Origin: Dicyema japonicum
Lineage: Eukaryota; Dicyemida; Rhombozoa; Dicyemidae
Assembly: GCA_011109175.1 (NCBI GenBank)
Contig: RDEW01000014.1
Coordinates: forward strand, 1,226,143 to 1,290,142
DNA length: 64,000 nt
Direction of reading: 5' to 3'
The position numbers and the translations under genes are program-made. Below are positions 10,711 to 60,423 of the stretch, piece by piece. Positions within the stretch are counted from its first letter, which is position 1, and each line of letters starts with the position of its first letter. Below the pieces are notes generated by a model that saw only the letters and a program-made list of their open reading frames with translations, was not told where the DNA came from and made no database searches.

Positions 10711-11352
10711 TTAACTTCCAAAGGGACTCATCATTATGAGAAGAGGAACAAAAATCCAAACCGAGTTGAGAGAGACAAAGTAAAACCAAAAATAAATAGG
10801 ATCCTTCCTATCCATACACTGTTCAAAGTCATCAAAGTACTCAGTTAGAAAGTACATAGTGGTCCCATACAACTGAAAGAGAACAGTCATCAACTGAAAT
10901 ACATACATTTTTGATATTTTAAGGATAGTCATCACAAAACAGACTACACATAGAGGACCGACCACATAGAGAGTGAATGATTCAATAGCTAAGACTGTGA
11001 CGTCATTTCTAAAATATATTGATTGGGTAACGTGAGGTAGCGAGAGTCAGAAATGGAGTACTTCTTCCCTAATTAATTATAGAACAAACAAACATAATTG
11101 TGCCATCAGTGTGTTCTGACTAATGATGGAGTCATGTTTTGTGACGTAAGTCATATCAATCACGAAATGAGTAAAGGCAGACAACAAAAACCACACCGCT
11201 TTGAACTTTCCAAAGCAGGATAGACCACAGAATTTTGCCAAACAACACCCAATCAAGAATATCCCCAAATATAGAGCAAGCAGATATGAAAGAAGTTCAT
11301 ATCTTGACATTGTATTAGGCACATAGCTTTTCTGTTGATTAAAATATTCCAT
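10711..11352 (-). CDS. EBP: Emopamil-binding protein family, 3-beta-hydroxysteroid delta8,delta7-isomerase
   Basis: Three exons (11352-11094, 11068-11032, 11008-10711) joined across introns of 25 nt (11069-11093) and 23 nt (11009-11031) give a 197-residue protein with TAA at 10711-10713. The human enzyme is about 230 residues. It matches the EBP family along most of its length. After an N-terminal membrane segment come FTHFVIDMTY, the splice-junction segment QLWKKYSISDSRYL, IESFTLYVVGPL, GTTMYFLTEYFDDF and DPIYFWFYFVSLNSVWIFVP. The catalytic-site His, Glu/Thr pair and the Asn/Trp of the last helices are conserved; one acidic residue is Asp instead of Glu. Family role: double-bond isomerisation in sterol synthesis in the endoplasmic reticulum membrane. 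The introns remove a stop and a frameshift, which makes the model convincing. EBPL is the alternative paralogue. Confidence 0.9.
11009..11031 (-). other. 23-nt spliceosomal intron of EBP
   Basis: GT-AG ends. Removing it joins DSRYL to TNDVTVLAIESF in frame, matching family spacing. Confidence 0.85.
11069..11093 (-). other. 25-nt spliceosomal intron of EBP
   Basis: GT-AG ends and an internal in-frame TAA. Removing it yields the conserved QLWK junction of EBP. Confidence 0.88.
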
Positions 11353-11744
11353 AAAACAATGTAAGCGTGTTTTAAATTTAAATTTATTGAACCAAAATCA
11401 CAATTAAAAATATATTTTTTTTTATTATCTTAATTTTATTTTTATTATATTATACATGGCGCTCCAATTGACTCATTTATCAAAGTATATGATCTCGTTA
11501 TTGCTAAGATCTTGGAAGGCCCGAGATATGAAAGAAACCTCCTTTGCTGTGGAGATTAACTTAAGACTTTAAGACTAACCGCAAGAAAAGGACTGGTATG
11601 GACACCGAGATCACTTAGTTGGACGATAACTTTTATTTTCTATTTCGTGATTTAAAGGTTATTAAATTAAAATAAATAAAAGATCTTGGGAGGCAAACGA
11701 ATCGTGTGAGAAATGTCAAATCTAGTGAGTCTTTGGTTTTGTGG

Positions 11745-12030
11745 TTAACCAGAAGGGAATACCAATATAAATAGAGTTCTCCAGAGACAACATCCTCAAA
11801 AAGATCAATATGGTCTGGAGTTAGCTAGGTTCCAGCATTTGGGTCATGAATACGAATAATACTAAAATTTAACACATTATTAGTAAAATTAATGTAAATT
11901 TATGATAAATTGCTAATTATTTCATTAATTTCATTTTCATTAATTTTTTCTCATTTACCAACATTTTGGTTATGATTATTAGTCAAACATCGACAATGGT
12001 GGCTAATTCCTCAGTGTACTTAAGAATCCT
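11745..12030 (-). repeat. Inverted repeat, right arm
   Basis: The reverse complement matches 9768-10080, i.e. the PDE1-like 3' region. It places PDE1 debris in opposite orientations on either side of EBP. Divergence suggests an old duplication or inversion. Confidence 0.8.
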
Positions 12031-12164
12031 TCTTTTTCCTAATCTATTTTTGAATTTACGCATCATTTCCACAACAAAAAAAAATATATTCATAAATGGG
12101 TAACAATTTCATCTTTGGGAGACTTTCTCAGGTTGAAATTATTTATGGTTTATTCCATTTTTGA

Positions 12165-12380
12165 TACCTTCCTAAGAGTCTCCCAAAGCTCCGTTTTGTC
12201 TCCTGCCTTATTCAAATTGCTTTGAGCGATATTCCAACTAATTCTAAGCCTCTTCTATCATATGCGGATGATCTGGTTATCGACTCTAAAGACAGTGACG
12301 TCATCGAAGGATTCAATAAGTATTTAAACTCTCTTGAAGAATGGATCAAATCCACACATTCTCTGTGAAATACTACTAGT
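12165..12380 (+). mobile_element. CR1-like RT fragment
   Basis: Encodes FLRVSQSSVLSPALFKLL, then PLLSYADDLVIDSKDSDVI and KYLNSLEEWIKST. This is the RT palm region with the YADD box, and the preceding GVPQGS is already degraded to RVSQSS. It is short and isolated, so it is a dead fragment. Confidence 0.75.
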
Positions 12381-13515: not shown

Positions 13516-13516
13516 N

Positions 13517-13860: not shown

Positions 13861-13929
13861 GGATGGAAATAGAGCATGGGTGACCAGTTATATTTTTATA
13901 TATATTATATATTATAACGCACAACGTCT

Positions 13930-18273: not shown

Positions 18274-19640
18274 TTAATGTTTAGATATTAAACGCTTAAA
18301 AAACTTCTTATTTGAATACTTCTTTTCATCCATATCCTCACCCAAAGTGGTCATCTCCGTCCTTTGGTCGTCCATCCTTGTGAGTTGCATTCTATCAAGC
18401 AGTTCATTTAGTTTGGAGACCTCAGATTCATTACCAGCTTTTACTGAAGGGGGAGACACTCGCTGGTCGTTCAATCTACCAACTTCAATCCGCTCAATTA
18501 AATTCCCCAACGATTCATTTATCAACGGCTGAGACTTCAATTCTTCCAACCATATCCTCGACTTCTCGACTACATCCTCACCGCAGAACATCTTGGCATG
18601 CTCAGTGTGTTTTTCTGCATAGTAAATAGCTTCCCTCCGCTTTCCCAAACATTGGAAACACTCACTAATAGACATGGAAGTAGCCACAACGGTTGCATGG
18701 TCCTCCTTTACTATAGATTCAGCATATATCGTTTCATGGAGTTCAATTGATCTATCATAGTCCACAGTTAACCAATATGAGTGAGCCAGAGACATGAGAC
18801 CCCTCAATCGAAGGGACCATACAGTTCCAGCCGTACTCAACCCAGTGGTGTACCAGTGGATAGCCTCCTCATAGGCACCACTAAGCAAATGACAGTTCCC
18901 CAAACATAGTTGGACCTTACAGTCTGACACTTCCCCCTCAGAGTAATCCAGTCGCTATAATTAACCCAAATATAACCATTTTATAGAACTTCTCTGCGAT
19001 CCTATAGTTCTCTGACAAAAAGTGGCAATCTGCAATACAGGTAAAGACCTTTCCCGAGTAATCATCAGGACAGACTTGCATATATGATTTGTAGAAGCGA
19101 ATACTTTTATCAAATAACTCGTTGGACGCATCATTATGCTCACGTCTCAGTTTCTTAGCCATCAAAAAATGGGTTGATGCCAAAATCCATAAAGCCCTTC
19201 CTTTTAGTTCCTAATAGTTAAGAATGTGTAAAACCTTGCTATTGTGAGAATTCGCAAGAGTCAACTGCTGTCTGGCATTGTCAACCGCTTCATCAAACCT
19301 CCCACGTGTCTTTAGAAGGGAAGCTAAGTTTCCCAGAGCTTTGAGTTCTCCGATCGGGTCTTTGATTTTCCTGAAATCGATTTTAAAGGGATTACATATT
19401 CAAGACGAGATCCTCGTTGAAATAATTCAGAGACTGGTCAAATGATTTTAGTCTAAAGTAGCACGTGGCCAGATGATTGTATATTGAACTCTTTAGACGT
19501 TTATTTGAGATATTGTGAGTAAGAGCCTCTTCAAAGTATTTTATGGCTTCTTCAAAGTTTCTCATGCCCATACACTGAGCACCAGAGAACACAAGCTTGT
19601 CACAAATAATATTTTTGGTCATATTTCTAAGCATAAACAT
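18274..19640 (-). CDS. TPR-repeat protein, similar to the N-terminal TPR region of Tonsoku-like
   Basis: Four exons joined by introns of 25 nt (19371-19395), 24 nt (19211-19234) and 22 nt (18955-18976) give a 431-residue protein. It is in frame from ATG at 19638-19640 to the stop at 18274. It is built of TPR units, e.g. NFEEAIKYFEEAL, SIYNHLATCYFRLKSFDQSL, ALGNLASLLKTRGRFDEAV, GNCHLLSGAYEEAIHWY and ISECFQCLGKRREAIYYAEK. The run KIKDPIGELKALGNLAS, followed by ELKGRALWILASTHFL and ELFDKSIRFYKS, parallels the TPR array at the start of TONSL, a replication-fork and histone-binding protein. The ankyrin and leucine-rich repeats of full TONSL are absent. The C-terminus is charged and low in complexity. 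GPSM2-like or other TPR scaffolds are alternatives. Confidence 0.75.
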
Positions 19641-25238: not shown

Positions 25239-28126
25239 TTACTTTGACGTCCTGATTCGGATGTTCTCCTTGATCGGCCTGACAAGTTTGTTCTCTTCCT
25301 CCGTCAGGACTTCATGTAATTTCTTACCGTGTTTTCTCCAGTCGGGCAGAATCTTTTCTCTCGAGGGGGTGTAGAACCATCCCTCGCTTCCGTAGATCAG
25401 TCTGGGAAGAATCACATTCCGGAAGATGAAGAGCATGGAATCAACGTCTAGCTTCAGTCTTTTAGTGCAGTACAGTGCCTGAAAAGCCTTTTTCCTTCGC
25501 CCTTCGATGTCCTTCATGTATGATCCTCTTCCATTGACTGAAATCCCCAGGTATTTCAATGACGAAACTCTCGGTATACAGAGAGTGTAGGGCTCCTCCT
25601 CATGTCTACCCGGCCTGCTTATCCTCAAATAACTGGATTTTTCCGTCGAGAGTTTCATGCCTCTCCGATCGCACCAACCCTGGACTTCGTCGATAAAAAC
25701 ACCTAGTCGCCGCTCTGAGATGTATGCCTTCAAAGATGAATCCAGGATTAAAATGTCGTCCGCGTAAATCATTAGCTTGGTTCTGACGTTCTGCGGAGAC
25801 GGAAAATCTTCCATAAATATGTTAAATAGCAAAGAGCTAAGAATAGATCCCTGTGGCACTCCATTTTAAATGATATTCCATCCGAATAACTTCCACCAAC
25901 TACCACGTGGGATATCCTCCCGGTTAGATAGTCTTTCAACCATAGGAACATTTCTTTGGTTATTTTAGAGCGAACTAGTTGACGAAATAACGCCTCGTGC
26001 CATACACTGTCGAATGCCTTTGATATGTCGAGACAAATAAGGCTCAACTGGCTTTTCTTCTCCAGTGTATTTATAATTTCGTAGTTTAGTGAGTGGATAC
26101 ACTCTCCACATGATCTTCCCGGACGGAAACTAAATTGATTTGGTTGTAGAAAGTTGCTCTTTTCTATATACCGATTCAGTCTCTTAAATACAATACGTTC
26201 CATAATCTTTGATGTAGAACATATAAGACTTACCGGCCTATAACTGAAGGGATCCTTCCTTGCTGTTCCTGGCTTGAGGATCATCTTAACAATAGATCGT
26301 TTCCATAAAGGAGGCACGTGTCCGAGCCTGAAACTCGAGTCATACATCTCTCGTAGAACAGACAATAGTTCATCAGAACCTTCTTTGAACATAATCATAG
26401 AAATGCCATCAAATCCTGGGGCCTTGTTCTTGCATTCACGAATTGCTGTTCTAACTTCTGCCATTGAGACTTTTTCTGTCAAACTATCCAGATCTTCCAT
26501 AGAGTAATCCATGAAATTAGGCAACTCCTCTGAAAACTTTTCATTTATAACACTAATAGGATCAACACCCTGTATATTCTCTAGTTGATTTCGGAATACC
26601 GAAGGAACTTTTTCCAATGGGATTGTCCTTCCATTTTGATCGGCTAGCTTAATGTTTTTCGCTTTTAAACTCCCATTCGTTAGCCTCCTGTACATTTTCC
26701 AGAAACAAGGGTTTTTCCAGTTAACCTTAGAGGCTGCACTCTTCAATTTATTTTCGGCGTTTACTCTCCAAGCTTCTTGTAGCATTGTTTGGATCACATC
26801 AATTCTGTATTTCAAGATTTTCCTGTCCCACATATCAATACATCGTCTGTGCTTCGCCTTCAGAGTATTCCTCTCGCGAATAAGATCCCGTATTATAGGT
26901 GGGCAAGAATTTTTGCTCTTTAGAAAGCTCTTCAAGTAAACCTTCCTTCCATATAATTGAAGATACGTCAGCATAGTGCTGGATAGTACCCTGTCGTAAA
27001 CGTCCAGCTCATTAGGTGTAGAACAAGAGATAGTCTTCGATAGTAAGGTCTCAGACAAATAATGACGATAATGTACCCAGTCTATCGACGAAGTATCGTA
27101 GTATAGGAAAATTAGGTGTAGAACAAGAGATAGTCTTCGATAGTAAGGTCTCAGACAAATAATGACGATAATGTACCCAGTCTATCGACGAAGTATCGTA
27201 GTATAGGAAAATATTTTCTGCAATGTTTGGTTCTAAGTTTATAGATATTTCCTGCGGAATATGATCACTCCCAATGTCCCAAAGCAACGCTGGTCCGTCC
27301 ACATAATCCAGGAGCTGTGGAGACACTAGAGCCAATCCCAACATGTCAGCTCCGTTGTATGAGAAATGGTTAGGTTCTTTAGACGTCAAGACCTCAACTC
27401 CAATTTCGCTAGCCAGATCTGCAAGGAGTCGACCGTCCCCATTATTTTTGCAGCATCCATAGCGTTGAGGTCTCCTACCAAAATCGACATCGGGTTAGTT
27501 CCAAAAAATTGGACAATTTTTGCAGAAGATCAGGCCAAGTCCTTAGAATCCTACGCTTATCCATTTCCCTCCACATAGAATATCCACAGACACAAATTCC
27601 GACCGTTTCGAAAAAAGATTGAAGTTCCAGTTCCAGCCACTGCTCCATCTTTCCATGGAATGCCCACCGAGTTGTACCCTTCCATACTATATTTTTTTCC
27701 TTGTTTGATTTTAGTCTCGTTGACTACCAAGACATCCATCTTGGCAATCCTCACAAGTAGCGCTAGTTCATCATGCCTTCTCACCAGGGAGCGGGTATTC
27801 ACCAGCACTACTTTCAATTTACTTTTCAGCGGTTTGGTTGGTGGCCTGCGCTCTCCACAGCCAGGTCCACCAGACTCTAAAAATCCACTTTCAGCATTTT
27901 GCATAAATTTTTTCAGACGAGAGAGAATACCATTCAGCTCCCGAGATACCGACTCGGGGATTCCTGCTTTGCTCTGTTCATGTTTACGTTTGGCGCCCAG
28001 ATTTACAGATCCATCACCAATGTGAGAGCTATCAGTTTCATAATCTCTTCCGTCTGTTTGACCATCTCGTAAACTTCTGACTTTCTCTGCAAGTTTTTCC
28101 TTTTGGCTCTCCTCTCCACCGGCCAA
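25239..28126 (-). pseudogene. Jockey-like LINE ORF2: APE endonuclease and reverse transcriptase, broken
   Basis: APE part: VVLVNTRSLVRRHDELALLV, then MDVLVVNETKIKQGKKYSME and DIGSDHIPQEISINL, the last containing the SDH catalytic triplet. RT part: ECKNKAPGFDGISMIMFKEG, PFSYRPVSLICSTSKIMERI, CLDISKAFDSVWHEALF, then GSILSSLLFNIFMEDFPSPQ and MIYADDILILDSSL, the palm motifs with YADD intact. C-terminal: VSSLKYLGISVNGRGSYMKD and FIFRNVILPRLIYGSEGW. Frameshifts near 27560 and 25860 and the 100-bp duplication at 27011-27210 split the frame. Confidence 0.85.
27011..27210. repeat. 100-bp tandem duplication inside LINE ORF2
   Basis: 27011-27110 is repeated as 27111-27210, beginning attaggtgtagaacaagaga. 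No N separates the copies. The unit is not a multiple of three, so it shifts the frame of ORF2. Confidence 0.9.
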
Positions 28127-29076
28127 TCAGGAGTATGTGAAGTATTGGTCCACTTCATTTCTTGGATTGGCTTGATTCCTTCTTTTCTAGACACTGTTTG
28201 TCTGGAAATTATTTTCTTCGATGCTTCTCTCATTGCCGGACACCCTCTATAGCGGGCATTGTGTCCTGCTCCTCCACAATTGATACACTTGGTCTCTACG
28301 TTCGATGGATATTCACACATAAGAAGATCGTGCTCCCCTCCACACTTGATGCATCTCTTCTTTTCCTTACACTGTGCCGCGATGTGGCCGATGCGTTCAC
28401 AGTTGTAGCAGATGGGAGGGGGCCTCTTCATCCACTCACACTCGATCTTGTTTGATCCAATGTAGAATCCACAACGTATCAACGATGAGGCCTCCGCGTT
28501 ACTACTAACTGAGGCCTTTGCCATAGGCATAGGCTGTGATCCTCTTGACATTCGGGTTACAATCAAAGTTGAGGGTGCCATCTCCTGAAGGTAATCAAGG
28601 AGGTCGTTCTCACTCACCCAGAAAGGAAGGTTCCTGAGAACAATCTCACAAGGTTTCGATATGAGCGTTCTGAAGTGGTGGTTGTCAGGTCCAAAGGGAC
28701 AGGTCTCATTTATGGCCTTCATATATTCGACCATGTGGTTATTGTCGCGGAAATCTAATCGGAAGGAGCCCGGTCCTTTGTGGCTCATCCTCAAAGATCC
28801 ATATTGATCGTAAAAATGTAAAATATTCGCAATTTTTATCGGACTCATAGTACAGTGAACTGTGATCAATAGTGACTTGTTATCTGTAGAATCTTCTATT
28901 TTTGGTTGTTCTATAGGTTTGGACTTTACAGTTTGGTTGTGTGTCGTAGGGTTGTTCTCAAGTTTAGAGGGCTCCAAAGTGAACGACCCAGCCGTAGCAC
29001 ATCCTGGGGGACGAGAAGAGCTGTTGGTTCTCATCTTTGGGGCTTTCGAATTTGATATTTTTCCTCTAACAACCAT
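28003..29076 (-). CDS. Jockey-like LINE ORF1 (gag, zinc-knuckle nucleic-acid-binding protein)
   Basis: A 357-residue uninterrupted ORF starting at ATG 29076. The N-terminal third is charged and probably disordered. The middle holds a fold with IVLRNLPFWVSENDLLDYLQ (residues about 150-170), resembling the RRM-like region of Jockey gag proteins. Three zinc knuckles follow: CYNCERIGHIAAQC (CX2CX4HX4C), CIKCGGEHDLLMC and CINCGGAGHNARYRGC. The product would bind element RNA and form the ribonucleoprotein. The frame is intact although ORF2 is damaged. The C-terminus overlaps the start of the ORF2 region. Confidence 0.85.
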   Translation of the reverse strand: MVVRGKISNSKAPKMRTNSSSRPPGCATAGSFTLEPSKLENNPTTHNQTVKSKPIEQPKIEDSTDNKSLLITVHCTMSPIKIANILHFYDQYGSLRMSHKGPGSFRLDFRDNNHMVEYMKAINETCPFGPDNHHFRTLISKPCEIVLRNLPFWVSENDLLDYLQEMAPSTLIVTRMSRGSQPMPMAKASVSSNAEASSLIRCGFYIGSNKIECEWMKRPPPICYNCERIGHIAAQCKEKKRCIKCGGEHDLLMCEYPSNVETKCINCGGAGHNARYRGCPAMREASKKIISRQTVSRKEGIKPIQEMKWTNTSHTPDWPVERRAKRKNLQRKSEVYEMVKQTEEIMKLIALTLVMDL

Positions 29077-29219
29077 TTAATATTTTTGTAGAACTGTAGA
29101 ACAGAAAATTGAATCCTCCTGTAGAACTTCATTTATTTTAGAAGACAAGACAAATTTTATTTTCTAACAAACCCCAAAACTAATTACTGTAAAGAAACCA
29201 AAACCTGAACCAAAACTAA

Positions 29220-41478: not shown

Positions 41479-42550
41479 ATTATTATTATTTAAGCCAAAG
41501 AAACACCGTCTTAACCAATAACTAATATTCAGGTGATCCCGGCATCTCTCAATAATCGGGCCATTTTTTCTCGATGCTCCGACTGTGATCCCACGCATTT
41601 TCTATACGGACGGGGGTCTTTTTCCTTTTCTCTTCTGAAATTGCCTCCATTTGCCTCTATGATAGACTCGAGTGCTCTGGGGGCAATTTCTTTATCTGTA
41701 TATTTTTCTAGTAACTTTTTTGCTCTTGACTGGATATCTTGAATTTTTGTTAGGTTCGTTGCCGACAGGTTAGATCCCCATGCAGCACATGCATAGCCTA
41801 TTGTTGGCTCGACATACTGCTTGTAGAGGGTCCCGATACCTGGCGGATAAATTCCTCCACAGTTCCAAAGGAAGGCCTTTACAAAATTGATCTTCTTTGC
41901 ACAGGTTGATATGATAGATTCCACATGGGCTGAGAAGCAGAGGAAAGTATCAAAAGTTACTCCCAGTATCTTCTGCGTTTTCTTTTGTGGTATAGGTACT
42001 CCATTTAACGTGACATCAATTGTTTGCGTTCCCATCTTTCTATTCTTAGTAAATAGAGTGACTGCTGACTTTTCGGAACATGCATTTAATCGATTCTCGC
42101 ACAACCATCCAAATATGTTATTTAGTATTCCTTGTAGTCTTTCCTTAGCATGTTCGACGTTTACGTCTCTAGATGCGACAACTATGTCATCGGCATAGGA
42201 AAGTAGTATGTCATTGTTATTCATAGGTACGGGGAGATCACTCAAAAACAAATTAAAAAGGATTGGTGACAGAAGGAGATCCTTGGGGTACACCATTGGG
42301 TAATAATCCCGATCTGGAACTCTTGTTTCCGACGGATACTTTCCCTCGGCGTCCACTTACGAAATTTGCTAACCATAACTTTAATGGTGCATCAATTTTT
42401 GTCAAAAATATTTTTCGTATGAGGATCTTCCTTGGGACAGAGTCGAAAGCTTTTTGAATATCGATCTTACATATGACCGATTTTTCCTGTTTTGGCTTGT
42501 TCTTGTGTCCTTCAGTTATGAACTTCATTAATGTTGTTAGGATAAGCCAG
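41479..42550 (-). mobile_element. CR1-like LINE 3' part (innermost), 5'-truncated next to WRAP53
   Basis: Two overlapping frames give a long RT stretch: CKIDIQKAFDSVPRKILIRK, LKLWLANFVSGRRGKVSV, NGVPQGSP, then LSPILFNLFLSDLPVPMNNN and LLSYADDIVVASRDVNVEHA, ILGVTFDTFLCFSAHVESII and YACAAWGSNLSATNLTKIQD, ending EHREKMARLLRDAGIT-stop. A single frameshift lies between GVPQGSP and LSPILF. The 3' tail ends in a short (AAT)n run (about 41479-41493) inserted into the middle element. The 5' truncation point is only about 100 bp from the WRAP53 start. Confidence 0.8.
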
Positions 42551-42645: not shown

Positions 42646-43934
42646 ATGTTGGTTCATCAAAATTTTGAAAATAATACTGATTCGGGAGTCACAAAAAGGT
42701 CAGTCGTTATTAAAATAATAAAGTGATTTCTCATATTTTACATACTTGACTGGCAATCAATCAGATTTTGATGTCAAAAATTGTGCCAAAGCCTGTAAGT
42801 GGTCCTTCGACGGTACTAAACTGTTGGTCTCATCCGACGATGCCTGCCTTCGACTGTATAATTTCGAGGACTGTTTTGAAAAAAGAATTTTCAAGCCCAC
42901 CATAGTAATTGATTAAACTTTTTCAGATGGGAACCATCGTGGCTTCTCATTCGCATATTATTTATGACTTTTCATGGACTGAAACTGACATTATCGACAA
43001 ACAGCTGTAAAATATCTTACTTATTACTGGTTCCTTTATTCAGGAAATGGACAGCCTCTCCATATCATGGACGCTAACACTTTTTCCTACGTTGGTTCTT
43101 ACATCTATAAAACTGATCTGGTTAATCTCTGTGCTTAATTTTCAGGGTAACGTGAAAAGTCCGTACAGCTGTACCTTTTCGATGAATTCTGAGTTTGTCC
43201 TCGCTGGTTTTTGTGGAAGAATTTTGGTTTATGACACTGAGAGGCCTGGCTGTGACTTTATCGTCAATATTAGTACTAATTGTACTATCATTTTGTAATC
43301 CTAAAGATAATGACGGAGTCTCTCACTTAAATGGGATCATTTCTACCATATCACCGAATCCTGTTCAGAATTACCTCCTTGCTGGGGGTTGTTATGACGG
43401 AACAGGTCTTTTGTGGAGTTATTTTAGTGGGTTTGTTCAACATGAGATTGAAGAGACCCTTGCTAGCCGTGTTTAAGGGACATATGGAAGGAGTAACTCA
43501 TGTAATGTTTTCGAATGATGGGATCCGTTTATTTAGTGGAGACCGAAAGGTTTTGATGGGAGATGACTTTTCAGGGATCAGAAATTGTGTGCTGGGATCT
43601 GAGGATGACTGGGAAGGTCGTGGGAGCATATAGGAGGGTTCAATCTACTAGTCAGAGGGTTTATTTTGACATGTAGCACGTTTGTGATCAATTTAAGATA
43701 TGATGATTGTCTCCTGTCTGGTGATGACTATGGAAGGGTTGTAATGTGGGGGAGTGATGGAACAGAGAGTAGTCAAATAGTGCACGAGGATGTTGTTAGT
43801 GGATTGAGGTAGTAATTAATAGTAATGCTAGTGTTAATAAAGTATATAAGGTTATGGCCACGTGCTCTGGAAGTAGACACCTTTGTAGTACTAAAGGTGA
43901 TAATTCTGTACGTATATGGAAAATAAATTTATAA
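42646..43934 (+). CDS. WRAP53: WRAP53/TCAB1-like WD40 protein with nine micro-introns
   Basis: Ten exons give 356 residues in frame from ATG 42646 to TAA 43932-43934. Introns: 42699-42723, 42905-42926, 43007-43029, 43121-43145, 43282-43306, 43431-43455, 43550-43574, 43673-43697 and 43809-43831 (22-25 nt). The order of WD40 blades matches WRAP53: CAKACKWSFDGTKLLVSSDD, IIYDFSWTETD, NGQPLHIMDANTF, CGRILVYDTERPGCDF, NGIISTISPNP, LLAVFKGHMEGVTHVMFSND, EIVCWDLRMTGK and SQRVYFDIYDDCLLSGDDYG. In animals this protein guides telomerase RNA and other CAB-box RNAs to Cajal bodies. The long N- and C-terminal extensions of the human protein are absent. The third intron ends in TG, not AG (see findings). 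A LINE end lies about 100 bp upstream, so the promoter must be short. Confidence 0.92.
43007..43029 (+). other. 23-nt WRAP53 intron with GT-TG ends
   Basis: Only removal of exactly these 23 nt joins KQL to FLYSGNGQPLHIMDA in frame and removes the in-frame TAA at 43008. Its last bases are TTACTG, where TTACAG would be canonical. Either a splice-site mutation, a sequencing error, or a non-canonical site. Confidence 0.65.
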
Positions 43935-44004
43935 TATCATTAAATTGTGTTTATGTTTTATTTTCAAATAATATAATTTGACAAAACTAATTTGTTAATT
44001 ATTG

Positions 44005-46542
44005 TTAATGTTTGTTATTTTTCGTAACAATTTTGATTAGTGTTTTGGTCATGTAATAAGGTTTGTCATCTGACCCGTCGTTAATGTTCATGTCCTCCAC
44101 TAAATACATAAGCAGGGTAATTACAGAAGCATATGAATATGGTGGTGACACCAGAATTATATATTTCATACAAAGCTATGTTTAGTATTAAGGCGAAAAT
44201 ACCCACAACCTAAACTACTAATCCACATATACAATGACAGGGATGATTCTATAGTTCAGATCTAATGGGTGGACTCCGATAAAGTGTTTATCAACACTGA
44301 CTGACTCAAACTTTTCGAAAAACCACAAATATGCGAGTATGGCTGAAAATATAAGAATATTAGACTTGTGAAAGCAGTGGAAAACAGAACAAATACAAAA
44401 ATAATGATTTTGGCAAGTAAATTTGTAATAAGCAGACTAAATGTTAAATCTGTGATTACCTCATGGGATTATTGAGAATAAGAAAGAAAACCTTTTTGGA
44501 AGAGTAGCAAAAATTATTTCCATGAATGACAATCTGTAATAAACAGAACGTGATTACATAAATGTATGTATTTTCAGTAATAAACTTTATGACTTTATCT
44601 AAACACCAAAAAAAGCATTTCATGTATCTTAATAATATCAATAATTACTTTATTATTGTATTCACAAATCTATTGTTGTATTTGTTGAGTTTAAGTGAAA
44701 TGTATTCCAATATTAATCTAATATACTTTACAATGGCAATCAATATGGAACCAAAGGCAATAGACCCAAGGTGATATCTAAATGTTACATCAATTCTGCC
44801 TTAGAGTTGTCCTGATGGCTTTCATTGTTGGTAAGGATGGTATGTCTTTGGGTTTCTCTAATGACCAATAGTATCCACTAAAACTCCCAGCAATAACACA
44901 AGTATTTAATCCATGAATGAATTGAATTATCCAAATCCACATAAACAGAATGAATGCGTATAACAAGTATTGATATCTTAGAGTGAAAACAAATATCACT
45001 TTGTCTCTCCATATTTTACGAATTTGCAGGCATCCGCCATAATATCCTAATGTTTAATTGAATTATTACAGTTGGTTTGCAGGAAATGTAATCACTGATA
45101 TTTAATGTAGAATTACCAAATCGTGGATTCCCCATCGTGTTTACATATCTGTGCTTTAAGAGAGGAAATATACCCACAAATTATAATACACATAAATGTA
45201 ACAACCAGAATTAGCAATATATTGAATATACCCCACAGGTACACCCCCCATACATAATTCAAAGCCCTGGTATATTCACAAAAATCAAACTTTGAAGTCT
45301 CGGCGAGCAAATGGGTCGCAATTTTTATTTTTCTTATAGTTCCGATGACTACCAACAACAGCAGAATTAAGAATATTAGGAAAATAATGGCTACACTAAA
45401 TTCATTAAAAACCTAAAGTCAGATTCAGATTGTAAAAATCTCCATAGGTTTTGAAATTTATTTTGAATTCATTTGGCCAACTTTCACCTCCAGCATTTTT
45501 TATTTTTATATATCTTTGAAAAAATAAATAAGATCCTGGAACTTAAAGTGAATGGGAAACCTGCTCCCAACGTTAAAAACAAAAAGACGAGAATGAGGGC
45601 AATCAAAGGTCCAACAAATAATCTGAGGATAAAAATAGTAACGAATCCGATTAATATTGATAATAAAGAAAATCTGTTGAATATATTATTTATACAAGAA
45701 AATTTCATTTTTTGTGGTCAAAATGTCACTCAAAGATGCCAATACAAAGGACTTGCTTATATCAAACAAGTGATTATTTCTCAAGTTATTATAAATCACA
45801 AACTTCAAAAAGTCACCGAGTTTTGTTATACTCATGTTTTTTTTGTACATTTGAATAGTGTGGTTTATATCGACTAATTGCATTAAAACCTTGGGGATGC
45901 ATCTTTTGACCACTACAATGTTACAATTGAATAGTACAGCTTTGTGTTTCCAACAAGTAACTAGGACATTTATTATATTTGATTATGGTTGAAAACTACT
46001 TGTTATTCATTTGGGTTACATTGTCAGTAGAATTAGCAAAGGGACAATACCCATCTTTCATAAAGGTTTTGTAGTTTACAGAATTAATAATTTTGTTAGA
46101 ATCGGGACATTTACTCACACACACCTGAATTAATGTCCTAAGTACTTGTTGTGAAGGACATCCATTGATGAGGGAATCCATTTCCAAACAGACAATAAAG
46201 TCGAAAAATAAGAGATATGGTTTTTCCTGGTAATTCTTGTCTTTCCCATTATTGACTCCGCACAACTTTCCATTCGAGTCGGTTGGATTGGTAATTCTCC
46301 TAATATCTCCGTAAGTCACACCTGAAAAATCATTATGAATATGTACAACCAATGATTGCTACCCCAACCAATGCTATAATAAGTACTACAAACAGCAACA
46401 GACAAATCAAATCAGTACATCTTCTACATATTACCAACAAACTCAGAAACCTTTCAACTTTTAATCCAGCATGGTAGTTCAATCGTTCAGACATATCGAA
46501 ATAATTGTGCTGTAAACGACGAAACCGTTTTTTATTTATCAT
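44005..46542 (-). CDS. SLC44 choline-transporter-like membrane protein with 17 micro-introns
   Basis: Eighteen exons give 710 residues in frame, the usual length for SLC44/CTL. Introns (5' to 3'): 46322-46346, 46125-46145, 45961-45999, 45913-45937, 45674-45695, 45542-45560, 45391-45412, 45095-45116, 45047-45069, 44977-44999, 44778-44799, 44628-44648, 44534-44557, 44437-44459, 44301-44326, 44210-44232 and 44100-44124. Diagnostic segments: CRRCTDLICLLLFVVLII (first membrane helix), NPTDSNGKLCG, CPSQQVCVSKCPDSN (extracellular Cys loop), AGSFSGYYWSLEKPKDIPSL, LRYHLGSIAFGS, KYMKCFFWCLDKVIKF, HGNNFCYSSKKVFFLIL and the C-terminal FLEDMNINDGSDDKPYYM. Plasma or organelle membrane transport of choline-type substrates is the family role; the exact paralogue is not determinable. 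Most introns carry in-frame stops or shift the frame, so the model is well constrained. The first intron could also be 28 nt (46322-46349). Confidence 0.93.
44778..44799 (-). other. 22-nt GC-AG intron in SLC44-like gene
   Basis: Donor is GC, acceptor AG. Removal joins RTTLR to YHLGSIAFGS, one of the most conserved SLC44 segments. The alternative reading runs into a stop within a few codons. Confidence 0.82.
45542..45560 (-). other. 19-nt GT-AG intron in SLC44-like gene
   Basis: Removal joins LTLGAV to PGSYLFFQRY and then NEFKINFKTYGDFYNLNLT, matching the family. The unspliced frame ends shortly after. It is the shortest intron seen in the window. Confidence 0.78.
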
Positions 46543-49138: not shown

Positions 49139-52100
49139 CCATTTTTTTTGGTTGAGCTGGTGACGTGGCTCTTGATCTCAATGTCTGGAAAACACAGTTT
49201 CAAGCCATTGGACTTCTCCCTTCTCACGTTTAACGTCAGGGGACTCTCTAGCGTTTGGAAACGGAAGGAACTGGTCGAGGATCTTTCAAAATACAAGGTT
49301 TCAATCGCCTGCCTTCAGGAGACCAAAGTAATCAACGGGATCGAAGAACAACATGCGAACTTTTGACTAATCTTCCTTTTGGTGGAAACAAGCACTATGG
49401 GCTAGGATTTGCAGTCAGGAAAGATCTATCCAAGAGAGTCTGCAAATGTTACAATGTGAACGATAGAATCGGGGTGTTGCAATTGAAACTGGATGACCTC
49501 AACCCGTCGAAGAAATATCTAACTATAATAAACGTGTACGCCCCTCACAGTGGATGGCTTAATAAAAACCCTGAGGAGATTGATGACTTTTACACTAGTC
49601 TTTCTGCCGTTTTCTCCATGTATGCTCTCTCAACACTAGTAATGATCGCAGGAGACCTAAATGCGAAAGCTGGCACCCAGGTTACGACCGATGAGACATT
49701 CATGGGAAGGCATGGTAGGGGGAAAAGAAATCTCCCGGGAACTCTACTAGCTAACTTCTGTCAAACGAACAACCTATTTTTATGCAATACAGCCTTCATG
49801 CATCCAGCCAGACATAAATCTACGTGGTCGGGACACAGAACAAACCCCGAAGGGCGAGTGATAAATATGTACAACCAGATCGACTATATCATATGCAGGC
49901 AAAAAGATCGAGGAATTATACTTGATGCACGAGCTTATGGTGGATCGATTATCGACAGCGACCACAAAATGGTTATTGCTAGACTTTCTCTAAAGAGATT
50001 TATGGTACTACAAAGAACGAAACGGAAGCACATTGAAACCACAGAACCCAACTATAGACGTTATAATCTGGAATCCTTAATCAGTCAATCAGAAGGGGCC
50101 CTAGAATTCAAAGAATATCTGGATGCAGAACTAGAAAACATGCCTACAGATTTGCCGCCCGGAAAATCCTGGGATTTTGTAAAGCACTCAATACACAAAG
50201 GAGCCAATCTGCATCTATTGAAAGAAAATGAGAAAACCCCATCGCACAATGAAATTTCCACGGTGAAGGACCTTGCCAATAAACAGAAGACCATATGGAT
50301 GCTATATCAAAATACTGACGATTCGAACGTAAAATCAAAATTGCGGCTAGAAAGAAAAACTATCAAAGCAAAAATAAGAAAAACTATACGCCAGCATAAC
50401 AGAAATAAAGCACTGGACCAGATTAAGAAGATAGAATCTCTCAAGGACAACGCTAGATTTTACGAGGCTGTGAAACAGATGAAAGGAAATAGACCCCATC
50501 AACAGATAATGATAAGAGATGACAAAGGAACGCAAATCGTGGACCAAATGGAAGTGGCTGAAACTATCGCTGCCCACTTTGGAAAACTTTTTGACCCAAG
50601 GAACGACACTACCAACCTAGAACGAGGAAAATTGGACGAGGAAGTCACACCATATGAAGTTGAACTTGCGAGTTCCAAGTTGAAAAACAACAGGACTCCT
50701 GGCCCCGACGGACTCGCTGGTGAATTCTTCAAATATGGAACCCAAAAGCTGTATGAATGCATCGCTAAAATCCTGAATGAAATGTACTATTATGGTCACA
50801 CGCTGACCCTGGGAGAGGGTATCTTGATACCTGTACAGAAGGCGAATAAACCAAGATCAAAGGTGGAGAACCTCTGTCCGGTCATATTAATGAATTCACT
50901 TCGGAAAATTCTGGCGAACATAACATTACAAAGGATGGAAGGACGCCTAGATACTTTTCTGTCGCCATACCACAGCGGATTCCGAAAAGGAAGATCTACT
51001 TCCGATGTTTTGTGGTCCCACAAATGGAGATCTGCGGCCGTTCAAAAGTTCAAAATGTCTACAACCATCCTCGGAATCGACATTTCGAGGGCCTTCGACT
51101 CTGTCGACAGACGGAGGCTAATACTGGTTTTGGAAAGTTTCCTAGACGCTTCAACTGTCAGAATGACCACCACCCTCCTAGCTGATACTTGGCTCACTGT
51201 AAGAGTCGGGGGAGCCTTGTCTCGCCGATTTGAGACGACTGTTGGCACTCCACAGGGAGACCCATTATCACCTATACTTTTTGTCATATACCTTGAAGCT
51301 GCTTTACGGGAGTCAAAACCGATAATGGGTGAAAAGACAAACATTATTGCGTATGCTGACGACGTAGACTTTACTTCAAATGACAAAATACCGCTCACCC
51401 GCTTGATGGAAGAAGTGTCTGGAAGACTAGCCGAATGGTTCCTAACAGTAAATCCGGACAAGACTGACGTAACTGAACTCAAGAGGGAAGAAACAAGGAC
51501 AGAGGAGTACTGGCGCAAATGCAAAAAGCTTGGCTCCCTCCTAGGAGACCATGAAGAAATTACGAGAAGGAAAACCCTAGCACAAACTGCCCTCTCCAGA
51601 TTAAAGAACATCTGGCTTCACAAAAAGGGCCTTGACATTATAACAAAAACTCGATTATACAACTCGCTAGTGAAACCCATACTACTATATAACGCTGTTA
51701 CCTGGGCCTGCTCAAGAAATGAACTGAAGAGGCTTAATGCGTTTCATAGAGACCAATAACGGCAGATGATATTCGAAAAAAGTGACACGAGGATGTCATC
51801 TAATCTTCTTTATAAGAGGACGAAGACTTCAGAAATTTCTAATGAGATTCTGGATACACGATGGAGGTTTTTCAGCCATATTCTGCGACTGGACCTAGAT
51901 GCCCCCGCGAACGTAGCCATGGAGGATTACTTCTTGTTGGAGGCCCTCCGTTTCCGTGGTCGCTCAAAAATGACACTGGCAGTCGTTCTCGACGAGGACC
52001 TCAAAGAAATGGGACGGCATCTTGAAAGTGGAGAGGATTTTGACTGGTTGCGCACTGCGGCTTCGAATAGGAGGAAGGATGTTAATATTAATGTGGTTTT

Positions 52101-52425
52101 ACCTGGCTAATTGGATGAAGTTTCCTGTCTGTTTTGTCAGTTCATCTTCTTCCCCTGCCTACTAGAGTGGCGTCATGTGATCCTTTTCTCAGGTGGTGCT
52201 TAGTGTCAGGCAGGCACGAAAAAGGATTATTTGCTCTCCCCCACTCCACTGGAGGAGTTTCGACAACTGCAAAAACTGGATGTCTTTTAACTTTCATGCT
52301 AGTTCTGGGTGGACTTATGTAACGTTGAAGGACTTTTTCTGTGCCTTGGAAACTGGATGCACTTAATTAGTTGTGTACCTCTTTCTCGATGTATCCGGGG
52401 TTAAAAAATAAATTAATTAAAAAAT
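49139..52425 (+). mobile_element. Nearly intact RTE-like LINE (family A), about 3.3 kb
   Basis: From the 5' box (TTTTTTGGTTGAGCTGGTGA, about 49144) to a 3' end with TTTCTCGATGTATCCGGGGT at 52382-52401 and an AT-rich tail. It has one ORF with APE and RT and no gag ORF, a short 3' untranslated region and a tail of short AT repeats, all typical of the RTE clade. It serves as reference for the family-A fragments listed elsewhere. Confidence 0.88.
49181..52110 (+). pseudogene. RTE-like ORF: APE endonuclease, reverse transcriptase, C-terminal domain
   Basis: One frameshift near 49340-49366 and one TAA (51757-51759) interrupt an otherwise continuous frame of about 970 codons. APE: LLTFNVRGLSSVWKRKELVE, ACLQETKV, IINVYAPHSGWLNKNPEE, MIAGDLNAKAGTQ and SIIDSDHKMVIARL (catalytic Glu, Asp/Asn and Ser-Asp-His present). 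RT: NNRTPGPDGLAGEFFKYG, YHSGFRKGRSTSDVLW, DISRAFDSVDRRRL, GTPQGDPLSPILFVIYLEAA and IIAYADDVDFTS (catalytic Asp pair present). C-terminal: RWRFFSHILRLDLDAPANVA, FRGRSKMTLAVVLDEDLKEM and DWLRTAASNRRKDV, the terminal segment usual in RTE proteins. Only two lesions, so insertion is probably recent. Confidence 0.88.
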
Positions 52426-57194: not shown

Positions 57195-58262
57195 TTGCTG
57201 GAAAAGCTTGTATTAATGCGTATCTCTCATGTTCTACATCTACCAGTATTTCAACATGGTTTCAGAACAGACAGTTCTACAACGACTCATTTGGGTTCTA
57301 TCTCCCAGTTTATTACTGATGGCTTCAACATGAGAACACACTTACGGACGGCCTTAGTATCCATCGATATACAGAAGGCCTTTGATTCTGTTACGAGAAA
57401 ACTCCTAACGCAAAAGATTTTTAATTCCAACTTACATCCGAACATCAAGCTATGGCTGCAGAATTTCTTAACTGGGCGACGCGGAATGGTCCGGATTAAC
57501 AAAACAACTTCAAAATCAAGATTACCCCCCAATGGGGTCCCGCAAGGCTCCCCTCTGTCTCCTCTCTTATTTAACTTACTTCTACACGATTTACTTACTA
57601 TCAATGATCAGGACACCATGTTTTTATCTTATGCGGACGACTTTATTATCGCTGCAAGGGACAAATCTCCCTCCAGGGCTGTGGCGGTGGTTCAGTCACA
57701 CTTCAACCAGATGTGTGACTGGCTATCCATAAATTTGCTGTCTGTGTCTGCATCCAAGTCTCAGTTCACGCTATTTACTACGGACAGAAAATTTAAAGGT
57801 AGGCTTGAAATATTCTCCGGAAACATTCCCATCCTTTATACACGAATCCAGAAAATACTTGGAGCAACTTTCGACTATCTGATGACGTTTGCCAGTCACA
57901 CGGAGGAGGTGTTAACCAAGGGTCTTCGAAAATGGAACGTCCAAAAAGCCATCGTAAAAAAGAGCCCCTTCCCTCCTACTGCTTGTATCAGCGAAGTATA
58001 TCTCCAAATTATTGCGCCGACGATTGAATATGCCTGTTCTGCCTGGAGATTCGCCATTCCTTCTACGAAGGTGGAGCGTGTGAATTCTATCAGACGGAAG
58101 ATAATGGGGCACATACAATCAGACTCCACATCCGTCCCCAGTCTGCTTTTAGAGGAGGCGACGGTGAGAAATGGCCAGGGTTTCTTACGTTTTTGCAAGG
58201 AACTGGAAAACCCATTCAAGGAAAAGTTGGCCCAATTCGGTAGGAATTTCGGTCGGTTATAA
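57195..58262 (+). CDS. CR1-like reverse transcriptase domain, 355 codons open
   Basis: Contains the main RT motifs: VLHLPVFQHGFRTDSSTTTH, VSIDIQKAFDSVTRKLLTQK, NGVPQGSPLSPLLFNLLLHD, FLSYADDFIIAARDKSPSRA, SINLLSVSASKSQFTLFTTD, KILGATFDYLMTFASHTEEV and PTIEYACSAWRFAIPSTKVE. Both YADD aspartates are present. It lacks its own start because the fingers region lies in another frame upstream (56961-57173). Without the upstream APE in frame it is not functional, although this segment is undamaged. Confidence 0.85.
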   Translation: MLEKLVLMRISHVLHLPVFQHGFRTDSSTTTHLGSISQFITDGFNMRTHLRTALVSIDIQKAFDSVTRKLLTQKIFNSNLHPNIKLWLQNFLTGRRGMVRINKTTSKSRLPPNGVPQGSPLSPLLFNLLLHDLLTINDQDTMFLSYADDFIIAARDKSPSRAVAVVQSHFNQMCDWLSINLLSVSASKSQFTLFTTDRKFKGRLEIFSGNIPILYTRIQKILGATFDYLMTFASHTEEVLTKGLRKWNVQKAIVKKSPFPPTACISEVYLQIIAPTIEYACSAWRFAIPSTKVERVNSIRRKIMGHIQSDSTSVPSLLLEEATVRNGQGFLRFCKELENPFKEKLAQFGRNFGRL

Positions 58263-58471
58263 AAAAGTGCACGCCAATTAAATTCCTTTGCAAAAGAAAA
58301 AGAAGGCGTTTCCGGAATGCGGTTGGGTCGGAACTGAGGCCGTTACTTGGGTCATCAGAAGATTAGATGAAGAGAGTTCGGATGTTGTTGGAGGCTGAAA
58401 TCACCTAATTAGTTAGTTTTGACCTATCTTTTTTGGTGGTCTTGGGGTTAAACAATTAAATTCGGGTAAAC

Positions 58472-58661
58472 CTAGCGCGCCTTCGCTCCGGTCATCATGT
58501 GGATGTGATCGCCTACCTGTAAAAAACCAGGCAGTCGTCACTTTGCCCTTCATGTAAACTTGATGACCAGGGGACAGATCACCAATTTCATGCACTTTGC
58601 CATTTTCTGTGTAATCCCTAAACGAGATCAACCTTTTTGGATCTCTGGAAACGTCCGTCAT
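58472..58661 (-). CDS. Small protein of unknown function, 54 residues, one 25-nt intron
   Basis: ATG 58661-58659 opens MTDVSRDPKRLISFRDYTEN and runs through GKVHEIGDLSPGHQVYMKGK. A 25-nt GT-AG intron with a pyrimidine-rich end (58517-58541) then joins to VGDHIHMMTGAKAR and TAG at 58472-58474. Without splicing the frame continues into LINE sequence. Base composition is more GC-rich than the surroundings, and the start context (actaccaATG) looks reasonable. I recognise no family. It lies 147 bp downstream of the MDH1B stop on the same strand. The 3' end of a CR1-like LINE abuts its stop codon, so the true C-terminus could have been lost. It could also be the last exons of a longer gene. Confidence 0.5.
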
Positions 58662-58808
58662 TGGTAGTTACGTTTTTGTTAGCCACCGGGTTCCTTCACT
58701 TGAAGGGAGCGGGGGTGAATAAATGATCAGCTGTAGAATCAGTTCAATTGGATTTCTGTGTAAGAATTAAATAGAAACAAAGTTATTGATATATTAGTGA
58801 ATTATATA

Positions 58809-60423
58809 TTAATTTTCTTGACTTTCCTCTGACTTTTTAAATTGCATCAAATGTTTATCAATTCTAGTTTTATCCTTGACAGAGACGTAGTTTTCATATA
58901 AATATTGTTGATTCTAATTCTCTAATATCAAATTACCTTAACGCACTCAAAAATATTTTTTATATCATCATTACTGAGCTCAATGTCCTCCACAACAGAC
59001 CATCCCCCGTTCTGGGAAAAAACAACAGGAAAATTAAAAACAATATTTTCAGGGACCTCAAACCACCCTAGCATTCAAAAAAATTATACCTTGGGAAATA
59101 ATCCCAATCGAATAAATGTTCCCGTCTCCTGAGCACAGCCACTGTTCCAAAATGTTAAGGATTTTATTAACGTGGGCCAAAGCACCTGATTTATTGCAAA
59201 CTAGGTTAGAAATGTCGCTATCATCGACCAACGATGTTTCAATCCACTTAAATTAACCCAGCCATACGTTTTGATCATACAAAACATCCTTCAAAGGTCT
59301 TCTAAAGTCATTCGTTGACTTTTGGATAGCTCCATCAGAATTCAATACTTTACAGTACTTGTAGCTGATGTAGAAATAGTTGTAAAAGTTACCCCAGTAT
59401 AAGAGGTCACTCACATTGGCGACTGGTACTTGGATCTTTTTTGCAATCTTATTACGAATCTTTTAAATAAAAATAAAAACTTTAATGTCTGCATTTCCGT
59501 TTATAGTGATAACGTTTGACCAGTAAAAGTAGCCATTGCTTGAGGAATAAAATATTTGGGCAAATAAATGAACATCACCGTCAATTCCACAGAAAACATA
59601 CTTTGTTGTCATTTTACAACATTTTTTACACAACATTGAGTATAATTCACACAGTTCCTTGCTGAATCCACCGACAAAAAATACAATGTCACTTCCAACT
59701 AAAACGTCATCAAGCTTGGTAGAGGTTAAGACTTTCCTTAAAGAGTCAAACCCAACATTTTCCAGGTCCTCTATTTTTTTCAATATTTCATCTTGTTCAT
59801 CATAAACATTTAGTTGGACATCCTTTCCTTTACATATTTTGGAGGACAAAAGTTCTTGGGCCAAAAACAGGCCTCCCTGGCTTCCTACATCCACAATTGT
59901 AATCACGGTTGGGTTTATAGTTTCTTTTTCAATTTTATACTAAAAATATAATTTTGAGACAACCTTTCTATCAGTCTCCAACTTCCATTCTAAATTTTCT
60001 TGGGCAATAAGCTTTATTCTTTCAGTACAGAGTGTACATTTAACATTATAATATTCGTGTGCATATTCTTGGAAATCGTTTATTCTAAAAATATATTTAA
60101 TTCATTTTAAATATTTAATAATAAATTACCCGCCAATTAAAATTATTTTTCCACCAGTATTTATTAACTCTCTGTATATTAGTGGAGAATGTTTATGACT
60201 CCATTTATTATCAGAACATATTTGAGTTAACCATTCCTAATTTAATAAACAAAATTATGTACATCCCATTGAGATTGTAATTTCTGTACTTTAGTGATAT
60301 GAAAGTCATCAAAGTTTGCTTTCAAATAGTCCCCTATATTTTCTGCAATCGTATAAAACGGACAATCTGCAATTCCTATTAAGTTATATTTCATTAATTA
60401 CCACAAATTACCAATTTTGCCAT
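58809..60423 (-). CDS. MDH1B: Malate dehydrogenase 1B-like protein, eight micro-introns
   Basis: Nine exons give 468 residues in frame. Introns: 60376-60401, 60237-60262, 60085-60129 (45 nt), 59940-59963, 59460-59480, 59247-59267, 59068-59089 and 58914-58936; all but the third are 21-26 nt. It matches MDH1B from the first residue: MAKLVICGIADCPFYTIAEN, WDEWLTQICSDNKWSHKHSP, GGINDFQEYAHEYYNV, ERIKLIAQENLE, a Rossmann-type VITIVDVGSQGGLFLAQEL, LYWGNFYNYFYISYKYCKV, YDQNWIETSL, PENIVFNFPVVF and GGWSVVEDIELS. MDH1B is a divergent malate dehydrogenase paralogue found mainly in animals and linked to ciliated cells. Whether it is enzymatically active is not evident here. Upstream lies a 48-bp tandem duplication, so regulatory sequence is very short. 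Confidence 0.92.
60085..60129 (-). other. 45-nt intron of MDH1B
   Basis: GT-AG, phase 2, between GG and INDFQEY. It is the longest intron found in the window and very AT-rich. Confidence 0.8.

Follow-up and report, generated by a model that had tools for sequence, protein, structure and literature searches.

Micro-introns in six genes of the window

The window, a stretch of 64,000 nucleotides, carries six genes in which we fixed 41 introns; all but one, which has 45 nt, are 21-26 nt long. Their lengths are distributed as follows: 21 nt (4 introns), 22 (8), 23 (9), 24 (6), 25 (11), 26 (2) and 45 (1). Forty are bordered by GT-AG and one by GC-AG. The genes are listed below, with intron lengths (nt) in brackets.

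10711-11310, minus strand: EBP-like gene (PF05241, 70.3 bits); 2 introns: 11069-11093 (25), 11009-11031 (23)
18274-19640, minus strand: TPR gene (TPR_12, 73.9 bits); 3 introns: 19371-19395 (25), 19211-19234 (24), 18955-18976 (22)
38876-39771, minus strand: SURF6 gene (PF04935, 55.1 bits); 3 introns: 39734-39756 (23), 39550-39573 (24), 39167-39190 (24)
42646-43937, plus strand: WRAP53/TCAB1 gene; 8 firm introns: 42699-42723 (25), 42905-42926 (22), 43121-43145 (25), 43282-43306 (25), 43406-43427 (22), 43550-43574 (25), 43673-43697 (25), 43809-43831 (23)
43007-43043, plus strand: candidate 37-nt GT..AG stretch in WRAP53/TCAB1
44005-46542, minus strand: SLC44 (CTL5-like) gene, 714 aa (PF04515, 236.3 bits); 17 introns of 21-25 nt: 46322-46346, 46125-46145, 45996-46019, 45913-45937, 45674-45695, 45536-45560, 45391-45412, 45095-45116, 45047-45069, 44977-44999, 44778-44799 (GC-AG), 44628-44648, 44534-44557, 44437-44459, 44343-44365, 44210-44232, 44100-44124
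58809-60423, minus strand: MDH1B-like gene; 8 introns: 60376-60401 (26), 60237-60262 (26), 60085-60129 (45), 59940-59963 (24), 59460-59480 (21), 59247-59267 (21), 59068-59089 (22), 58914-58936 (23)

The Pfam domains EBP, SURF6, TPR, WD40 and Ldh_1_C were recovered from the window models, and the genes are read with the standard genetic code. If kept, 38 of the 41 introns would shift the frame or introduce an in-frame stop, as the sequence-only reading had stated for most of its introns; the other three are multiples of three and stop-free. That reading had also counted introns gene by gene, and its numbers were reproduced for EBP (2), TPR (3), SLC44 (17) and MDH1B (8), but not for SURF6 (two proposed, three found) or WRAP53 (nine proposed, eight firm and one candidate found). 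A further "small gene" with one intron was not located in the window, which yielded weak candidates only. From the proposed length range of 19-28 nt, plus 39 and 45 nt, the short class and the 45-nt intron were recovered, whereas no intron of 19, 28 or 39 nt was found. The window also holds several long ORFs with reverse-transcriptase-like motifs, as judged by eye.

The additional SURF6 intron is the first one (39734-39756), and its support comes from the frame. The TPR gene may perhaps be GPSM2/LGN-like, its GoLoco match being weak (21.7 bits, under the cut-off of 25.1). A first, partial model of WRAP53 had human TCAB1 (7bgb_K) as its best PDB match (E 7.2e-27). Early models of this gene with a 34-nt or 22-nt intron were replaced by 43282-43306, which presumably fits the human sequence better. 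The 37-nt stretch at 43007-43043 is probably the intron earlier given as 39 nt; when it is taken out, the reading frame is out by one, and the claim that all coding sequences are multiples of three in length does not hold for WRAP53.

The strongest homology evidence within the window concerns SLC44. With all 17 introns removed, its product matches PF04515 over positions 1-325 of 326, whereas an earlier, incomplete model reached 67.4 bits over positions 1-154 and had no match among PDB sequences. The protein search (5 matches among 8000 scored candidates) returned choline transporter-like protein 5 from fish and mammals, the best being a fish CTL5 (E 1.1e-74, 94% coverage). The junctions lie in ungapped blocks in 17 of 17 cases against this best homologue (P0001), in 17 of 17 against P0002 and in 12 of 17 against P0003. 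Retaining any one intron lowers the score by 2 to 730 against P0001 and by 3 to 653 against P0002; against P0003, retention of each of the last four introns changes it by +4, 0, 0 and 0. There are weak spots in this test: retention of intron 45996-46019 lowers the score by just 2 to 5 points, and similarity to P0001 is nil or negative near the junctions at residues 65 and 250.

For MDH1B, an open frame of 468 aa, the 4736 candidates drawn from 5.8 billion proteins included no homologue at E <= 1e-3, and its Ldh_1_C match is marginal (23.8 bits, cut-off 22.6). For this reason its junctions rest on the frame and, like its name, on what we take to be the sequence of the family.

A reference gene and the splice signals

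The PRPF8 gene of the same genome, located outside the window, served as a reference. It contains 36 introns of 20-26 nt, and its product is 86.4% and 87.1% identical to human PRPF8 over the 900 and 700 residues counted. In the alignments, 35 of the 36 junctions are separated from the nearest gap by more than 15 residues; the remaining one falls in a loop where the human protein has 12 extra residues, and its borders are less sure. A 20-nt "intron" proposed here by the finder was rejected, as its letters encode protein in another frame (VDDE motif); it lies beside a T run with a probable one-base assembly slip. Apart from this slip, the frame is conserved after intron removal in PRPF8, as it is in SLC44; WRAP53 has the one exception given above.

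The window and PRPF8 together provide 77 curated introns (41 and 36), of which 76 are shorter than 30 nt and 73 must be removed. Their borders, imposed by the finder and curation while the frames in PRPF8 and SLC44 were fixed by homology, are GT-AG in 76 and GC-AG in one. The 76 introns of up to 30 nt have a mean length of 23.33 nt (SD 1.34). Micro-size is not universal in this genome, as introns of 32-57 nt were predicted in other genes. For some counts, 61 introns from 11 predicted genes were added and 8 longer than 28 nt left out, giving a set of 130.

In a control based on codon usage only, 256 donor/acceptor dinucleotide pairs were compared at intron penalties of -6 and -3.5. GT-AG ranked 1 and 1 in PRPF8 and in TPR, 51 and 51 in SLC44, 85 and 9 in MDH1B, 84 and 75 in WRAP53, 32 and 43 in SURF6, and 78 and 78 in EBP, where no intron was called; summed over genes at -3.5, it ranked 1. 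In five of the seven genes GT-AG did not stand out by codon usage alone, and as the test is too weak for these, homology was used as the deciding evidence.

Apart from GT and an A or T at +3, the 5' splice site has almost no code: none of the 77 donors reads GTAAG or GTGAG, G occurs at +5 in five and at +3 in one, and positions +3 to +6 carry 0.29 bits against intron composition. In the 130-intron set T stands at +3 in 45, and AG is preceded by T or C in 106 and by G in none. The +5G and U1 complementarity of metazoan donors, a usual trait and no strict definition of U2-type introns, do not characterise the donors here. By AT content the introns are well separated from decoys of 20-26 nt that lie in exons and are bordered by GT-AG (AUC 1.00 for PRPF8, 0.93 for five genes of the window).

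A weak branch signal was also detected. TNAY at -11 to -6 is present in 29 of 40 window introns (18.4 expected, z 3.4) and in 30 of 36 PRPF8 introns (22.0 expected, z 2.8); since the PRPF8 control stretch at -20 to -12 is raised as well (z 2.4), part of the signal reflects base composition. Neither curated set shows enrichment of YTNAY, a stricter motif (z 1.2 in the window, -0.5 in PRPF8). Where TNAY was found (59 of 76 introns), its A lies on average 15.2 nt from the 5' splice site (range 9-20); the putative branch point is thus about 15 nt, and cannot be more than 22 nt, from the donor.

Origin of the introns and of the genome

It could be asked whether the apparent introns stem from indels in the assembly, from pseudogenes with frameshifts or from GT..AG pairs that arose by chance. 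The probable slip in PRPF8, the frame shift in WRAP53, six single Ns in the window and the codon-usage result in five genes would fit such an artefact, which is nevertheless a negligible prospect: the 36 inserts of PRPF8 interrupt a protein 86-87% identical to the human one, and all 17 SLC44 junctions fall in ungapped blocks. Judged by these alignments, the artefact is already refuted for both genes. Removal from DNA instead of RNA, in the manner of ciliate internal eliminated sequences, would fit inserts that are short, AT-rich and precise. Dicyemids are reported to eliminate DNA in their somatic cells, and ciliate eliminated sequences are of similar size. We regard this as very improbable in view of the GT-AG borders (with the reservation on the finder made above), the T or C before AG, and the fact that for coding regions of D. 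acuticephalum both genomic DNA and cDNA were cloned and 16 introns defined (PMC2222250).

The host might also belong to another lineage with micro-introns, e.g. orthonectids, appendicularians, ciliates or nucleomorphs. The mean of 23.33 nt is below the 24.93 nt of D. acuticephalum (Welch t -3.8), and the two top-scoring named matches of mitochondrial MDH (MDH2) are plants (52-53% identity). On the other hand, 24 of the 27 organism-named MDH2 matches among those listed are animals, with up to 58% identity, the standard code applies, and the orthonectid Intoshia has a median intron of 57 nt according to PMC6543705. The assembly (64.67 Mb) and the GC content of the window (30-41% in 4-kb bins) are close to the D. 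japonicum genome, described as 67.5 Mb with 36.7% GC, 48.9% repeats and many LINEs (PMC6736024). A non-dicyemid host therefore seems unlikely, though it is the least improbable of the three alternatives. The proposal of a "dicyemid-like" genome is supported indirectly, by these traits and its richness in micro-introns, the plant matches speaking against it; dicyemid identity is likely on this basis.

The earlier statement that introns of about 20-30 nt are known in dicyemids, minute parasites of octopus and squid, agrees with the literature, where they measure about 25-27 nt. D. acuticephalum, D. japonicum and Dicyema sp. are credited with means of 26.2 nt (16 introns of D. acuticephalum, PMC2222250) and 24.93 nt, a median of 27 nt, several AT-rich introns per gene and 5' splice sites of very low information (0.5 bits), the weakest known at publication (PMC2222250, PMC2483917, PMC6543705); a mean of 38.2 nt is given for D. 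japonicum in PMC6736024. Compared with published dicyemid introns, those described here are slightly shorter and richer in AT (80.4% versus 69.89%), few genes being compared, and in the window set they show a weak branch signal, whereas a different test reported no signature in 41 dicyemid introns (PMC2483917). That standard gene finders would miss every one of these genes was overstated, as D. japonicum was annotated with trained AUGUSTUS (PMC6736024).

Our results support spliceosomal micro-introns: we consider them, with a probability of roughly 0.9, to be U2-type introns that have shrunk to about 23 nt in an animal which is most likely a dicyemid.

Recognition of introns of 23 nt

Genes for U1, U2 and U6 were found, and the loci read carry canonical boxes; the U1 matches extend over the full length, with scores under the Rfam cut-off, and the 5' ends of the U1 genes fit a donor code that the curated introns do not use. 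U2AF2 (334.8 bits, cut-off 310.3), SF1 (PF16275, 111.5 bits) and a PUF60-like protein are present. The suggested adaptation of the spliceosome to micro-introns is not seen in the U1, U2 and U6 boxes, PRPF8, U2AF2, SF1 or the PUF60-like protein; RED/Smu1, SPF45, U1C and LUC7, outside this set, are the most likely factors for it. The human machinery could not handle introns nearly as short as these, yet the organism seems to remove them with a splicing core of ordinary appearance.

Human extract requires about 50 nt between the 5' splice site and the branch site and fails at 46, for which the B-complex structure offers a reason (PMC6692369). Human introns dependent on SPF45 (truncated pyrimidine tract, PMC8363638) or Smu1/RED (short distance from 5' splice site to branch, PMC6692369) pose a similar problem, but the model introns measured 56 nt in one case and 80-90 nt in the others. 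Introns of comparable size occur in Paramecium (20-35 nt) and the Bigelowiella nucleomorph (18-21 nt) (PMC2222250), for which PMC2483917 describes donors largely of the form GT(A) and the lack of a branch signature, and PMC5014332 proposes size as a recognition feature. Unlike the present host these are non-animals, and their donors are largely GTA, whereas T at +3 is common here.

We propose that the intron is recognised as a unit, i.e. a short AT-rich island with GT at its start, AG about 23 nt further on and a branch A about 15 nt in. SF1, U2AF and U2 would bind the branch site and the 3' splice site, and U1 pairing would contribute little. An RNA of this length would hardly offer room for U1 and U2 snRNP next to each other, so that the 5' splice site is probably passed to U6/U5/PRPF8 after or instead of U1. 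Within 15 nt only short pairings of U6 with the 5' splice site and of U2 with the branch site would fit (about 6 nt each by our estimate). Tentatively, and at somewhat less than even odds, the 50-nt limit may come from early steps that can be dispensed with (co-assembly of U1 and U2, extended U6 and U2 helices) and not from the catalytic core, intron identity then lying in a length-gated AT-rich island.

Dicyemid micro-introns with very weak 5' splice sites are already known. What is new here is the complete lack of GTAAG and GTGAG donors among 77 introns alongside canonical U1, U2 and U6 boxes and PRPF8, as well as a weak branch signal that places the branch point about 15 nt from the 5' splice site. 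Such a distance is apparently enough in this organism, with a canonical PRPF8 and U1 genes fitting a disused donor code. It thereby becomes possible to test directly, in an animal, where the spliceosome reaches its physical lower limit and what part U1 plays, and gene finding in such genomes must permit introns of about 20 nt.

Introns of the window genes

A small finder for spliced genes, with exon pieces from the window as its training data, supplied the intron models, which were then curated. The window lies within a 1.31-Mb contig (the assembly comprises 64.67 Mb in 191 contigs) and contains 41 such introns, distributed over six host genes.

Introns in the host genes of the window
EBP, 2 introns
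TPR gene, 3 introns
SURF6, 3 introns
WRAP53, 8 introns
SLC44, 17 introns
MDH1B, 8 introns

All are 21-26 nt long, with a single exception of 45 nt, and 38 of the 41 either contain an in-frame stop codon or alter the reading frame; the sequence-only reading had described most introns in this way. That reading had given lengths of 19-28 nt with two longer introns. Its counts recur unchanged for four of its seven genes (EBP, TPR, SLC44 and MDH1B), SURF6 has, in the curated model, one intron more than the two proposed, and its small one-intron gene was not located. For WRAP53, eight of the nine proposed introns are firm, but removal of the ninth (43007-43043, 37 nt) leaves the frame unrestored. 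In the PRPF8 gene of the same genome (contig C87) the frame is off by one within a T run, in the exon at the VDDE motif (C87:1217501-1227000, locus L049), which is probably an assembly slip. As the assembly thus probably contains frame slips, the WRAP53 break, too, may plausibly stem from a fault in the assembly, and such slips may account for other broken frames in this genome.

With all 17 introns removed, SLC44 matches positions 1-325 of the 326 of PF04515 (236.3 bits), and its match to fish CTL5 (P0001, the best homologue) spans 94% of the length. All 17 junctions fall in ungapped blocks against both P0001 and a further homologue, P0002, and 12 of 17 do so against P0003, a shorter protein. 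Keeping any single intron lowers the score by 2 to 730 (P0001) or 3 to 653 (P0002); for the last four introns, the change against P0003 is +4, 0, 0 and 0. Local similarity to P0001 is nil or negative at the junctions at residues 65 and 250, and keeping intron 45996-46019 costs little against all three homologues. The only window intron with GC-AG borders (44778-44799, SLC44) lies inside a 187-residue ungapped block shared with fish CTL5.

Long ORFs with reverse-transcriptase-like motifs, recognized by eye, sit between these intron-rich genes at 25239-30552 (-), 40939-42356 (-), 49255-52110 (+) and 57195-58262 (+). Frames at 36600-38200 (-) resemble, by eye, a decayed hAT/ZBED-type element, and one candidate frame there has a possible 25-nt intron. 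Six isolated single N occur at 13516, 15871, 53157, 53390, 62590 and 63474.

Introns elsewhere in the genome

After one false finder call was discarded, PRPF8 has 36 introns of 20-26 nt and a product of 2304 residues. The product is equal in length to human PRPF8 over human residues 479-1538. Against residues 1468-2309 it shows two gaps close to the C-terminus, of 2 and 1 residues, and in the N-terminal part (aligned from an earlier model) gaps of 4+8 and 1+4 residues; identity is 86.4% over 900 residues counted and 87.1% over another 700. For 35 of the 36 introns the junction is separated from every gap by more than 15 residues, the exception, at residue 201.7 (23-nt intron), being inside the first N-terminal gap.

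The predicted introns of MDH2 (5, of 23-26 nt) and SF1 (about 9, of 22-25 nt) are similar to the curated ones. Among the MDH2 matches listed, identity is highest to metagenome proteins (up to 60%) and reaches 58% to animal proteins; animals provide 24 of the 27 organism-named matches, of which the two top-scoring are from plants (52-53%). The micro-introns, genome size and base composition are consistent with a dicyemid. Further malate dehydrogenase-like matches were noted (L002-L008), two of them about 6 kb apart in opposite orientation on contig C2. Longer introns, of 32-57 nt, are predicted in RNA-binding protein genes (L033, L035, L037, L039, L041); one of 50 nt, in L035, begins with GTAAG.

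Sequence signals within the introns

In the 77 curated introns (window plus PRPF8), the 76 of 30 nt or less average 23.33 nt (SD 1.34), and AT content is 80.4% (window 74.6%, PRPF8 87.2%). After the GT, donor information at +3 to +6 amounts to 0.29 bits relative to intron composition: G occurs at +3 in one intron and at +5 in five, and none begins with GTAAG or GTGAG. Adding 53 introns predicted in 11 other gene models (8 introns above 28 nt left out) gives a set of 130, in which the predicted introns are not independent, since the finder itself uses donor and acceptor models. Here +3 is A in 78, T in 45 and G in one, +5 is G in 12 (13.7 expected from intron composition), and -3 is T or C in 106 and never G; one of the 53 (L044) starts with GTAAG. 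AT content by itself tells introns apart from GT-AG decoys of the same genes' exons (20-26 nt), with an AUC of 1.00 in PRPF8 (36 versus 118) and 0.93 in five window genes (32 versus 130, WRAP53 left out).

Of the window introns, 29 of 40 have a T-N-A-Y with its A at -11 to -6, where shuffled sequence predicts 18.4 (z 3.4); in PRPF8 the figure is 30 of 36, with 22.0 expected (z 2.8). Because the control stretch at -20 to -12 gives z values of 1.1 and 2.4, respectively, and the stricter YTNAY is not significantly enriched in the curated sets (z 1.2 window, -0.5 PRPF8), the branch-site signal is weak in the window and doubtful in PRPF8. The putative branch A lies on average 15.2 nt from the 5' splice site (59 of 76 introns), and the distance is at most 22 nt even with the A at -4.

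Splicing machinery and intron recognition

Scoring of the best candidates only, which makes all counts lower bounds, gave at least 11 full-length U1 matches (none above the Rfam cut-off), at least 25 U2 matches (22 above) and at least 10 U6 matches (9 above). Among the eight loci read for each, the U1 5' end is ACUUACCUGG in seven and ACUUACUUGG in one, GUAGUA is kept in all U2 loci, and seven U6 loci pass the ACAGAGA filter (exception L032). The eight U1 loci (L009-L016) have diverged bodies and near-identical 5' ends (ACUUACYUGG), even though GTAAG and GTGAG are absent from the starts of the curated introns. Four U2 genes (L021-L024), identical across the 62 bases read, lie in both orientations within 114 kb (C115:849574-963753), together with at least two further U2 matches. 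U2AF2 scores above its family cut-off and matches the human U2AF65 RRMs (E 4e-59), although its gene model probably misses one intron; a PUF60-like protein has a half-pint match under the cut-off. An SF1-HH match begins 485 bp right of the window, in locus L050 (C45:1290143-1294142); SF1 is the branch-point-binding protein.

Splicing in human extract requires that the branch site lie about 50 nt from the 5' splice site and fails at 46; from the human B complex a distance of about 52 nt follows (PMC6692369). If the T-N-A-Y A is the branch, the distance here is about 15 nt. We infer that U1 and U2 snRNPs would be unable to bind side by side on such introns, and that U6 and U2 could not both form the extended helices that they have in the human B complex, leaving short helices only. 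With the donor code nearly absent, intron identity would have to come from an ensemble of GT, a short AT-rich stretch, branch A, AG and narrow spacing; the order of events is likewise one that we infer. Size has been proposed as a recognition feature in nucleomorphs (PMC5014332).

Micro-introns as such are already known, as dicyemid introns were described in 2007 (16 introns, 26.2 +/- 1.9; PMC2222250), in 2008 (n=41, median 25, mean 24.93, SD 2.51, weak donor of 0.5 bits, branch signature absent; PMC2483917) and, at genome scale, in 2019 (median 27, Intoshia 57, PMC6543705; mean 38.2, PMC6736024). Introns are slightly shorter here than in D. acuticephalum (Welch t -3.8), but few genes underlie this difference and we therefore claim no record. 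No inventory of dicyemid snRNAs or splicing factors was seen in the open-access papers that mention both dicyemids and the spliceosome. What is added here is a canonical splicing core alongside micro-introns, a figure for the distance from 5' splice site to branch site, and a measure of introns as AT islands.
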